From a virus: a stretch of DNA of 28,640 nt. This document shows, one piece after another, positions 3,139 to 7,358 of this stretch. The DNA lies in the IMG/VR virus record IMGVR_UViG_3300042010_000143, positions 1-28,640 of that record; one strand, 5' to 3'. The position numbers and the translations under genes are program-made. Position 1 is the stretch's first letter, and each line of letters opens with the position of its first letter. Below the pieces are notes generated by a model. The model had not been told where the DNA came from. It ran no database searches and was given only the letters and a program-made list of their open reading frames with translations.

Positions 3139-3434
3139 GTAAGCAAACAAAGCTGACCAAGGCAGCGCGTGGCCGTGAATGCCAAATCCGCATTCCAGGT
3201 GTTTGTAACGGCAACCCCGAAACAACCGTGCTCGCGCATTACCGAATGGCCGGTACCTGCGGCATGGGCATGAAGCCAAACGACCTGCAGGGCGCTTGGG
3301 CGTGTTCTGCCTGTCATGACTACGTAGACAGCCGAAGAAGCGCTGCTGATCGAGCTGAGGCTCGCCAGTACCACGCGGAGGGCGTCATGCGCACGCAGGC
3401 CATTTTGATCAGTGAAGGGATAGTTGCAGCATGA
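3135..3434 (+). CDS. YbcO-like (DUF1364) phage nuclease
   Basis: A 99-residue protein with the arrangement known from the YbcO/DUF1364 family, a predicted HNH-like metal-dependent nuclease found next to nin-type genes. Visible features are the basic start KAARGRECQIRIPGVCNG, the LAHYRMAGTCGMGMKPNDLQ core and ACSACHDYVDSR, whose Cys and His residues suggest metal binding. It is coupled by ATGA overlaps to ninB and to the hydrolase gene. A DNA-processing or recombination role fits its position but is inferred. Confidence 0.82.
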   Translation: MSKQTKLTKAARGRECQIRIPGVCNGNPETTVLAHYRMAGTCGMGMKPNDLQGAWACSACHDYVDSRRSAADRAEARQYHAEGVMRTQAILISEGIVAA

Positions 3435-3850
3435 ATGAACAAGCAATTGATGTACTTGCTCGCACTTTGTGGGGGGAGGCTCGTGGCGAAGGTCTCGCCG
3501 GTCAGATCGCTGTAGCCCACGTGATCCGCAACCGCGTAAACGATGGCAAGGATAAATCTTGGTGGGGTGAGGGCTACGTCGGCGTGTGCCAAGCCAAATG
3601 GCAATTCAGCTGCTGGAACGCGAATGACCCGAATTATCCCTATCTGAGCGGCCAGAAGCCTATCCCGCTCGATCAATACACTCAGGCACGGGAAATCGCA
3701 GTAATCGTGATGGATGGTCTCCAGCCGGACCCCACAGGCGGTGCCACTCACTACTATGTAGCCAAGATGAAGAATCCGCCTGCATGGCGCACCAATGCCA
3801 CGCGCACCTGTGTGATCGGTAGTCACGTGTTCTTCAAGAATGTTCCGTAA
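3431..3850 (+). CDS. SleB/Hydrolase_2-type cell-wall hydrolase
   Basis: Peptidoglycan hydrolase of the SleB catalytic fold (Hydrolase_2). The N-terminus reads LARTLWGEARGEGLAGQIAVAHVIRNRV; Glu16 is the expected catalytic residue. The characteristic CQAKWQFSCWN and GATHYYVAKM stretches follow. The protein is only 139 residues, is a bare catalytic domain, and has no signal peptide or membrane segment, so it would need a holin for export. It is the only clear lysin in the window and may be the endolysin, although it sits upstream of the terminase genes and not in a downstream lysis cassette. Confidence 0.8.
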   Translation: MNEQAIDVLARTLWGEARGEGLAGQIAVAHVIRNRVNDGKDKSWWGEGYVGVCQAKWQFSCWNANDPNYPYLSGQKPIPLDQYTQAREIAVIVMDGLQPDPTGGATHYYVAKMKNPPAWRTNATRTCVIGSHVFFKNVP

Positions 3851-3859
3851 GGAGGACCG

Positions 3860-4384
3860 GTGAGCAAGGCAAAGAAAGGGGTTGATTGGGCCGCAATTGA
3901 GGTCGAATACCGATCTGGCGTTAGGGCGCTCAGAGTGATCGCTGTCGCGCATGGAACGAAAGAAAGCACCATTCGAACCAGGGCGCAGAAATACGGTTGG
4001 GTGCGAGATGTAGCGGGCACCAAGCGAGAAATTGTCAAGGCTGCCATGGCCGGTTCCGCGCATGATTCCGCGCAAACTTCCGCGCATGAAGTAATGCGCG
4101 GAATTGAGAGTGCAGCCGCTGAAGATATCGTTGATATGGAGCGGGGAATCCGCATCAGTCGCACGTGCCTGGAGAAGCTGGAGACGGCTGTAGGTGTCGC
4201 GAAGGAGCCGAAAGAAATCAAGGTAGTCGTCGAGGCGACGGGCATGGCCATCGATTCGATTCGCAGGATTCGCGGCCTTGATACACCACCTGGTGGTAGT
4301 CAGCGCAAAGATGATGAGATGACCCACGAGGAGCTGATTGAAGAATGTAAGCGCCTTGGCTTGCCGACATCGATCTTTGACTGA
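3860..4384 (+). CDS. terS: terminase small subunit
   Basis: DNA-recognition subunit of the packaging motor. The 174-residue protein begins at a GTG with GGAGG four bases upstream. Residues 9-50 form a helix-turn-helix-like region (AAIEVEYRSGVRALRVIAVAHGTKESTIRTRAQKYGW), a central helical region would mediate oligomerisation, and the acidic C-terminus (DDEMTHEELIEECKRLGLP) would contact the large subunit. It directly precedes the large subunit, with TGATG overlap. A repeat array within the gene is described separately. The assignment rests on context plus the HTH. Confidence 0.82.
   Translation: MSKAKKGVDWAAIEVEYRSGVRALRVIAVAHGTKESTIRTRAQKYGWVRDVAGTKREIVKAAMAGSAHDSAQTSAHEVMRGIESAAAEDIVDMERGIRISRTCLEKLETAVGVAKEPKEIKVVVEATGMAIDSIRRIRGLDTPPGGSQRKDDEMTHEELIEECKRLGLPTSIFD
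4054..4103. repeat. 12-bp-period TTCCGCGCA array inside terS, candidate pac/cos recognition site
   Basis: TTCCGCGCA occurs at 4054, 4066 and 4078, exactly 12 bp apart, followed by its reverse complement TGCGCGGAA at 4095. The third copy and the inverted copy form a perfect 9-bp inverted repeat with an 8-base spacer. The repeats encode tetrapeptides of the form xSAH/xSAQ. Packaging sites lie inside or beside small-terminase genes in P22 and SPP1, so a packaging role is a reasonable inference. Confidence 0.55.
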
Positions 4385-5841
4385 TGACCAGGTCTGAGTT
4401 GTTGGATGCGTTGGCAGTAGCTGAGGCCCGGAAATCATTCTGGGCTTTTCGTCGCTACATGGACCCCAAGCTGAAGATCGGTTGGTGGCAACGTGAAGTC
4501 GCGAACGTCCTGCAGAACTTCTTCGACGAACTCATTGCCGGCGAGCGCCCAATGTACGTCATCCAGGCGCCACCACAGCACGGCAAGAGTATTCAGATCC
4601 TCGACTTCATTGCTTGGCTGTCTGGTAAACATCCTGAGTACCGGACGATCTACACGAGCTTTTCTGAGCGCCTGGGCATCCGCGCAAACCTTCGGATGCA
4701 GCGCATCATGGATAGCGCCAAATACAAGAAAGTATTCCATGGGACCCAGCTCGGAAAATCGAGAAGCAACCCAACTGGCGGTGTCGCTCTTCGTAATCAC
4801 GAGATCCTCGAATATGCCGGAGAGGAGGGGTATTTCCGGAATACCACTGTACGCGGCTCAATCACCGGCGAAGGGCTCGATCTGGGTGTCATTGATGACC
4901 CCATCAAGGGTCGGGCGGAAGCCAATAGCAAGGCTGTGCGGGATGCTGCTTGGGATTGGTTGACCGATGACTTCTTCACGCGCTTTTCAGAGCATGCGGG
5001 CTTGCTGGCCATCCTCACTCGTTGGCATGTGGACGATCCGATTGGTCGGCTTATCAAGAATTCGCCAGGAGTACAGGTGTACTCCTATCCGGCAATAGCC
5101 ATAAAAGACGAGCCAAACCGCAAAGAGGGTGAGCCGCTTTTTCCTGAGCACAAGTCGAAAGACTTCCTCATGGCTCGAAAGGAGGTTATGGCCGACGCCA
5201 ACTGGCAGGCCCTGTATCAGCAGAACCCGCAGATTCTCGGTGGCGAGCTGATCCACAGTCGCAACTTCCGGCGTTACACGATCACGCCTCAGATCCTCTA
5301 TCGGAACATCTATGCCGACACAGCGCAGAAGACTTCCGAGCACAACGACTACAGCGTCTTCCAATGCTGGGGCATGGGAGACGATGGTCGTATCTATCTG
5401 CTGGACCAGATCCGGGGCAAGTGGGAGGCGCCCGAGCTGGAGCGTAAGGCCGTCGACTTCTGGAACAAGCATGCCTGCATGCCGGGCGTGGGCGCGCTTC
5501 GGCAACTGATCGTTGAGGAAGCATCCAGCGGCACAGGCTTGATCCAGTCGATCAGGACCAGCGCAAAAGCACCGATTGCCCCTGTTGATCGTGGCACGAG
5601 AGAAGGCAAGTTGAGTCGCGTCATGGACATCCTCGGTTACATCGAGGCGGGCTTCGTGTGCATCCCTGAAGAGGCGCCATGGGTAAGCGATTTTACCGAG
5701 GAGTGCGATGCCTTCAATGCCGCCATGACCCACGACCACGACGACCAGGTAGACCCAATGGTCGACGCAATTAAAGACATGCTCGCCGGTTCGACTGGCG
5801 GGCTGATTATTCCTGAAGAAGCAGCGAGCATATTTGGATGA
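4384..5841 (+). CDS. terL: terminase large subunit
   Basis: ATPase and nuclease that cuts concatemeric DNA and drives it into the prohead. At 485 residues it is typical length. The Walker A-like motif is QAPPQHGKS (61-69) and Walker B is GVIDDPIK (168-175). The C-terminal RNase H-like nuclease has the acidic residues expected: Asp312 in YADTA, Glu378/379 in VEEA and the HDDQVD cluster (452-457). The C-terminal half matches the type found in psiM2-like terminases. The start ATG overlaps the small-subunit stop by one base, and the portal gene start overlaps its end. Confidence 0.95.
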   Translation: MTRSELLDALAVAEARKSFWAFRRYMDPKLKIGWWQREVANVLQNFFDELIAGERPMYVIQAPPQHGKSIQILDFIAWLSGKHPEYRTIYTSFSERLGIRANLRMQRIMDSAKYKKVFHGTQLGKSRSNPTGGVALRNHEILEYAGEEGYFRNTTVRGSITGEGLDLGVIDDPIKGRAEANSKAVRDAAWDWLTDDFFTRFSEHAGLLAILTRWHVDDPIGRLIKNSPGVQVYSYPAIAIKDEPNRKEGEPLFPEHKSKDFLMARKEVMADANWQALYQQNPQILGGELIHSRNFRRYTITPQILYRNIYADTAQKTSEHNDYSVFQCWGMGDDGRIYLLDQIRGKWEAPELERKAVDFWNKHACMPGVGALRQLIVEEASSGTGLIQSIRTSAKAPIAPVDRGTREGKLSRVMDILGYIEAGFVCIPEEAPWVSDFTEECDAFNAAMTHDHDDQVDPMVDAIKDMLAGSTGGLIIPEEAASIFG

Positions 5842-7358
5842 GACGTAAAAAAAGACGTAACGCGGTGATGCCACAGACGGCGGCGCCCATGAATATCAGT
5901 GCGATTGCCGCAACCGTATTTGATCGCGCTCCCAGTGATCAAAATCTTATGGTTGCTGATCAGTGGAAGCCACCAGTAAACCTTTGCGATTCGAGCAAAA
6001 AGGGCAAAGCAACACGTCTGGCGATGGATGCAGCCCTAGATGCTGCTGGTGTCTATACAGCTGCGCAGGCTATGGGCGGAGTCGTAGGCGTTGATGGTGG
6101 CTCGGGTATTTCCTTTCCCGGATATCCTGCGCTGGCCAACCTTCAGCAGAATCCGTTGATGCGCTTGATCGTGGACACCATCAGCGATGAATCAACACGC
6201 AAGTGGGTAACGCTCCAGGGCGTCGATAAAAAAGTAAAGGACGACGACATCAAGCGCGTCACCGATGCGTGCGAAAAATGGCAACTGCGCGACGTATTTA
6301 AAGCAGCCTCCGAGATGGTCGGCTTTCAAGGCGGCTGCCTGCTCTTTATCGACGTAGGCGCGACCGACGAAGAGTTGGTTACGCCGCTTGTGATATCGGA
6401 CAAGACCATCGGCAAAGGTAAGCTGAAGGCGCTAACGATTGTCGAGCCGATGCAGGTATATCCGGGCCTATACGACGCCTCAAATCCATTGTCGCCAAAG
6501 TACTTCAGGCCAGATACATGGATTGTCCAGGGTGTTGAAGTGCACGTCAGCCGCTTCCTGTGCTTCACCAACAATATCCCCAGCCTCATGCTCAAGCCCG
6601 CCTATAACTTCTTTGGGATTCCCCTGGTGCAGCTCGCACTACGTTACGTGCAGAATTTCGAGAGCTCCCGTGACGCATCGGCAGAGATAGTTCACAACTA
6701 CTCGCTGCTTGGCTTAAAGACCAATCTTTCCCAGATCCTGACGGATGAGGGAAGGGCTCAGATTCAGCGTCGAGCGAAAATGATGCTGGGGGCAAAGCGC
6801 ACACTTGGCATGGCAATCATCGACAAAACGAGCGAGGAGATGTTCCAGATCGATACGCCAATGTCTGGCCTGAAGGATCTTGTAGGGCAGCAGCTTGAGC
6901 TTTTGGCGCTTATCTCAGGTATTCCTGTAACCAAGCTTTTTGGTACCGCGCCACAGGGTATGAACGCCACTGGTGAGGGCGATATGCGCAACTTCTACGA
7001 CAAGATCCGGACGTGGCAGGAGATCTTGTACTTCAAGAATTTCCAGAAGGCGAGAGAGCTTATCGAGCTCACGGAGTTCGGTTCAATCACACCTGGTATC
7101 ACCGAGGTGTGGGAGCCGTTGAAAGAATCCGATCCGACCGAGCAAGCGAACATACGCAAGACCAATGCAGATGCTGATGCCATCTATTTGGATCGAGGCG
7201 TCTTGCTTCCAGAGGAGGTCAGAGAGCGTCTTTCCGCAGATGAAGAAAGTGGCTTTACAGGATTGGATGAGCTCGCACCGTTAGAGGAGGAACTAATTGA
7301 TGGACTCGAAACAGAAGCAACCGAGCCGGCCAGCATCGTTCCGGAACCTCAAGCCTAA
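5838..7358 (+). CDS. portal protein (DUF1073 family)
   Basis: Dodecameric portal ring at the capsid vertex that conducts DNA and joins head to neck. The 506-residue protein follows the terminase with a 4-bp overlap. It has the DUF1073 features: PGYPALANLQQNPLMRLIVDTISDE near residues 94-118, the FQGGCLLFIDVG segment, ISGIPVTKLFGTAPQGMNATGEGD (about 358-381) and a C-terminal acidic tail. Databases sometimes label this family with the anti-CBASS name Acb1; here the length and context clearly indicate a portal. Confidence 0.9.
   Translation: MRRKKRRNAVMPQTAAPMNISAIAATVFDRAPSDQNLMVADQWKPPVNLCDSSKKGKATRLAMDAALDAAGVYTAAQAMGGVVGVDGGSGISFPGYPALANLQQNPLMRLIVDTISDESTRKWVTLQGVDKKVKDDDIKRVTDACEKWQLRDVFKAASEMVGFQGGCLLFIDVGATDEELVTPLVISDKTIGKGKLKALTIVEPMQVYPGLYDASNPLSPKYFRPDTWIVQGVEVHVSRFLCFTNNIPSLMLKPAYNFFGIPLVQLALRYVQNFESSRDASAEIVHNYSLLGLKTNLSQILTDEGRAQIQRRAKMMLGAKRTLGMAIIDKTSEEMFQIDTPMSGLKDLVGQQLELLALISGIPVTKLFGTAPQGMNATGEGDMRNFYDKIRTWQEILYFKNFQKARELIELTEFGSITPGITEVWEPLKESDPTEQANIRKTNADADAIYLDRGVLLPEEVRERLSADEESGFTGLDELAPLEEELIDGLETEATEPASIVPEPQA

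Follow-up and report, generated by a model that had tools for sequence, protein, structure and literature searches.

How small terminases (TerS) recognize their own DNA is described as unclear and controversial, above all for pac phages (PMC9611059; PMC4737164). In lambda-like phages (lambda, 21, N15), the R sites of cosB are several short words, one of them inverted, that are read by the recognition helix of a TerS helix-turn-helix (HTH), and helix and word differ together between phages (PMC4669245). Lambda cosB lies next to cosN and outside terS, with an IHF site in the complex forms but not in the simple cosB of N15, although N15 has an inverted R-like copy inside terS. The P22 pac lies within terS and is a 22-bp asymmetric sequence for which specific in vitro binding is reported as not demonstrated (PMC9611059). 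SPP1/SF6 pac has repeats at the start of terS and HTHs of a TerS ring as readers, but the SF6 HTH is reported as a weak, mostly non-specific binder (PMC4737164). HK97 and PaP3 have a sequence-specific site read by a ring-like TerS; HK97 reads DNA by N- and C-terminal segments at the tunnel exit, while PaP3 is proposed to read by lateral interdigitation (PMC11331095; PMC7672466). No phased array inside terS appears in the parts of these two accounts that we consulted.

We examined a 28,640-base stretch of phage DNA (hereafter, the window) in which TTCCGCGCA occurs at 4054-4062, 4066-4074 and 4078-4086 on the + strand and once inverted at 4095-4103 on the - strand, with no other copy. Dinucleotide shuffles gave a mean of 0.55 copies, with a maximum of 2 in 100 shuffles, and synonymous recoding of the stretch never reached the observed repeat score (0 of 100). 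The first and third units are identical over 12 bp. The array lies in the terS gene (3860-4384, +; 174 aa, GTG start), which matched PHROG 1206, terminase small subunit (E 1.5e-21, residues 4-98), and directly precedes the large-subunit gene terL (4384-5841, +; PHROG 38, E 1.3e-91; Terminase_6N/6C). The AlphaFold2 model has three short helices of an HTH domain (residues 10-19, 24-31 and 35-45), a helix 51-68 whose end is poorly predicted (mean pLDDT 54 for residues 61-70), and a long helical region beginning with helix 75-113. The third helix, codons 35-45 (3962-3994, +; E35 S36 T37 I38 R39 T40 R41), lies in a high-confidence stretch and is the predicted recognition helix. The array as a whole occupies codons 65-82 (4052-4105, +), and is thus written over the linker between the HTH and the long helices. 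No PDB relative was found by sequence (weak unrelated hits only). Fold comparison of the whole model was filled by long helices, and an HTH-only model gave weak matches, many to homeodomain and HTH proteins, none with E under 0.9; neither comparison identified a relative.

The sequence-only reading had proposed these repeats as a candidate packaging site, with a 9-bp stem, following the logic of P22 and SPP1 pac sites. The proposal of a packaging site read by the small subunit and lying in its own gene is supported, although binding and cutting remain inferences from sequence. The inverted arms are in fact 10 bp, each direct copy pairing with the one inverted copy. Further, the mechanism looks closer to the lambda cosB R sites than to P22 or SPP1/SF6 pac, and whether the window phage is a headful (pac) or a cos packager is not settled. 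We do not classify the array as a cosB, because it lies inside terS, and is phased (at 12-15 bp across the family). No IHF consensus match was found at 3500-4700. It shares its place in terS with P22 pac but comprises phased repeats with an inverted copy. Relative to SPP1/SF6, word and helix covary across the family, which argues for specific reading, although no binding was measured.

Scans with the window TerS alone found no relatives, whereas TerL led to the nearest phage found, L001 (codes beginning with L denote loci or records retrieved in this work), with a TerL 95% identical over residues 1-485. The TerS of L001 is a different one, 45% identical over the first 49 residues with a short C-terminal match, and at the same place it carries GGTATCCA four times (steps of 12, 12 and 13) and twice inverted. 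The 13-bp step puts one copy in another reading frame. Thus, the array is not lost when terS is exchanged but is replaced, and the counter-case named by the sequence-only reading, the same terminase without repeats, did not occur. Among 42 TerL relatives and in phage records, such arrays were seen around terL only with the HTH-type TerS, apart from a different triad in Acinetobacter prophages. That triad belongs to an unrelated TerS family (DUF2280; L025-L094, Acinetobacter prophages among them), about 450-600 nt before terL. There, a 7-base word is followed by the same word 10 bp on near the terS start, with its inverted copy usually 113 bp after the first, inside terS. This layout was found in 31 of 41 distinct regions and in 0 of 820 single-base shuffles, with about ten different words, and may be a second self-encoded site.

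HTH-type TerS genes from scans and phage records formed 69 clusters at 80% identity, and 37 further clusters brought the set to 106. A blind test for three same-strand copies of [TC]NNNC at steps of 12, 13 or 15 found arrays just after the HTH in 79 of 106 clusters (76 on the coding strand), against 0 of 104 in the last 120 nt of the genes long enough to test; 27 clusters showed no phased triple. A looser word caller called 86 of 106 clusters, but also 50 of 104 control stretches, gave some discordant words (for example EGARK: ACG 19, GCG 5, GTA 1, TTG 1), and was dropped in favor of the phased-triple test. Step types on the coding strand were 15+12 (51), 12+13 (18), 12+12 (3, the type of the window) and four others. 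Of the 76 coding-strand arrays, 52 have an inverted copy within 45 nt after the third copy, whereas words of other classes occur there in 106 of 912 tries. At most 5 of 100 synonymous recodings reached the observed score in 53 of 69 clusters.

We wrote the recognition helix as h1 h2 h3 I h4 h5 R and the word as (GG)T N4 N5 N6 C A. Among the 27 helix types with an array, each showed one NNN: EG/DG with R gives ACG; DT with R gives TCG; ES with R gives GCG (the window); HG-A-N gives ATC; HT with N gives TTC; HA-T-L gives AAC; HN-T with L or M gives GAC; HV with A or G gives TAC; HV-T-S, HV-S-N and HV-N-A give TAA; NP-A-A gives TAG; and Q at h4 in HT-A and HG-A gives TGC and AGC. Eleven types have more than one cluster, and HTAAK (L353) with CAG is probably chance. 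Word differences followed helix differences (r 0.750; partial 0.752 given the rest of the protein; 0 of 2000 permutations), not the rest of the protein (r 0.008). Mutual information was highest for h2-N4 (1.45 bits) and h4-N5 (1.44 bits), each 0 of 2000 permutations. In most arrays N4 is the silent third base of a valine codon, and this base was set by the helix residue after E/D/H in 186 of 186 copies: GTA after G/A (115 of 115), GTT after T/V/P (65 of 65) and GTG after N (6 of 6), while valine codons elsewhere in the same genes are mixed. Copies within one array are identical by the caller's rule, so these codons are not independent of each other and the independent unit is the array. A protein-level cause cannot set a silent base, so selection acts on DNA.

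The helix-to-word rule was written down before new loci were read. Of 106 new loci, 105 had the HTH profile and 92 the helix pattern, and these gave 37 clusters below 80% identity to the training set and to each other, 32 of them predictable. The predicted core was strictly the commonest of 27 possible cores in 20 of 32 clusters (15 of 20 with a helix type seen before, 5 of 12 with a new one). It was present at least twice in 22 of 32, compared with 3 of 32 in the 3' ends of the same genes. Twelve predictions were not strictly first (L350, L351, L353, L376, L378, L383, L386, L389, L392, L437, L441 and L452; L376 and L392 were ties), 7 of them with helix types not seen before. Read afterwards, L378 and L383 show the expected core with another last base, and L437 and L441 show an array with G at N5; these are not counted as successes. 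L306 (DAAIR), with TCG where the rule gives ACG, and L386, which mixes two words, go against the rule.

In the reverse direction, we scanned the viral collection for phased GTACGCA without using TerS and kept 80 loci with 81 matches. Of these, 71 of 81 lay in an ORF with the TerS HTH. With a second reader, 68 of 81 had a readable helix upstream (EGARK 63, EGGRK 3, EGTRK 1, DGARK 1), exactly the types to which the code gives ACG. Ten lay outside: simple or coding repeats (L464, L474 twice, L497, L510), one TerS cut by a contig end (L535), and four others (L467, L493, L536, L538). L493 has ten direct and two inverted copies of GTACGCA near a large ORF (3277-3472), and L467 has a GTACGCA triple next to four copies of a GGTTAGCG-like word (6260-6381), both without an HTH TerS in the locus. 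A scan with the window's core, CCGCGCA, gave no TerS case in the 80 loci kept, most matches being 15-bp repeats. The window's own helix-word pair, ESTIRTR with TCCGCGCA, therefore remains a single case; its nearest analogues are ESTIRSR with TTCGCGCA (L154, L159, L161) and ESTLRKR with GCGCA (L349).

L536 lies in a 19,348-base record (L697) with an integrase, an AntA-type antirepressor, an Ash-family protein and a primase (PHROG 1139, DUF927), plus tape-measure-like and neck-like proteins, which we read from these names as a P4-like element. This element holds a 40-bp stretch (around L697 18432-18465; L536 10219-10252) identical to terS arrays of HK639-like phages (40 of 40 with L160), outside any terS. 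No HTH TerS was found in the record, although not all of its ORFs were scanned and an empty result alone shows little. This is what a satellite that borrows a helper's packaging site would look like, but it is one case.

In seven phage records the word GGTACGCA occurs 2 to 8 times, with most copies in the terS array; in phage 8P all three copies of GGTATCCA are in the array, and in USP_25 three of eight. For SEN34, a close relative of HK639 whose packaging sequence was reported as not identified (PMC5261728), the array is visible. The packaging type for the window is open. vB_EhrS_49, which has the predicted word four times, is stated to be headful from experiment (PMC7317114). In HK639, whose array begins at 224 of its record, TACCAC and GTGGTA flank six bases exactly at the record join (L455 end, L103 start), a possible cos that hints at this type but is inconclusive, and none was seen at the joins of SEN34 and GF-2. 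The TerL relatives Aaphi23 and CP-T1 belong to a myovirus group in which five sequenced genomes assembled as circles, taken as circular permutation (PMC3391216).

Collectively, these results strongly support recognition of the array by the TerS HTH. Its role as a self-encoded packaging-initiation site (pac, or cosB-like) is the natural reading, to which we assign a probability of about 0.8, but is inferred without binding, cleavage or end-mapping data. In this reading, each word is read by one HTH of a TerS oligomer, with E35, S36 and R39 specifying the core GCGCA and T40 influencing the bases before it. Three in-phase words plus one inverted word would let several HTHs of one oligomer grip about 50 bp, after which TerL is placed to cut and start packaging. 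Because protein and site share one gene, exchanging terS moves both together. Packaging-initiation sites of this general kind are known, but the in-gene phased array with a readable code appears undescribed, although our literature searches covered few subscription papers and are weak evidence of absence. A broader possibility, which we consider somewhat more likely than not, is that a large family of phage small terminases carries its packaging address in its gene in an HTH-to-DNA code, in which the residue after E/D/H sets the silent base and the first and fourth residues set the next two. The gene would then be a self-addressed, exchangeable packaging cassette whose site can be predicted from the protein alone and used by P4-like satellites by copying about 40 bp, and the DUF2280 family may follow the same principle with another layout. 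Such a code would let packaging sites be read from genomes, which bears on transduction, on satellites that borrow the site, and on why terS genes are exchanged whole.

The alternative that survives best, although unlikely, is that TerS binds the array as an operator, repressing or tuning its own operon rather than, or as well as, starting packaging. The site lies inside the transcribed gene, the SPP1 TerS-pac complex is reported to lower transcription of the motor operon (PMC4737164), and all of the helix-word evidence fits any TerS-DNA function. However, TerS is the packaging recognition subunit, the array is not at a promoter in the window (194 nt inside the gene), and the copy outside any terS in the P4-like element is easier to explain by packaging. 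An RNA hairpin controlling translation or decay of the terS-terL message is very doubtful. The window stretch (4045-4115) does fold strongly, at -31.3 kcal/mol (z -3.5; 0 of 200 shuffles as good), but 24 of 76 relatives' arrays have no inverted copy within 45 nt, the distance of the inverted copy varies, and a hairpin does not explain the match between word and recognition helix.

A protein-level repeat (SAHD SAQT SAHE) with the DNA repeat as its by-product is also improbable. Copies are in frame in the window, and linker peptides of relatives repeat too (VRK, VSK, GTQ), but the inverted copy encodes other residues, 21 arrays have copies in more than one reading frame, the same word is read as VRK or GTQ, synonymous recoding rarely keeps the repeat, and the reading is contradicted by the fixed silent base. 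Replication-origin iterons, as in lambda O-type genes, are similarly unlikely because the window gene is a terminase gene with no AT-rich tract beside the array, and the word follows the TerS helix. Phased 12-bp CCGCGCA words do occur beside an AT-rich tract in other phages (L616 8494-9579, also L601, L602, L605, L612, L628, L635 and L649). In L602, L616 and L628 they lie in a 362-residue ORF, which in L616 matches Phage_rep_O, and are probably origin iterons in their own gene. Finally, although short repeats arise by slippage and 15-bp coding repeats of similar words are common in the collection, a chance product without function is opposed by the shuffles (0 of 100 with four copies), the recodings, and recurrence at the same place in relatives with other words.

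Outside the array, the TerS C-terminal tail (EELIEECKRLGLPTSIFD in the window, 4319-4381) recurs at the C-ends of terS in L001, L003, L004, L014 and L016, in otherwise different TerS proteins before related TerLs, and may be the TerL contact.
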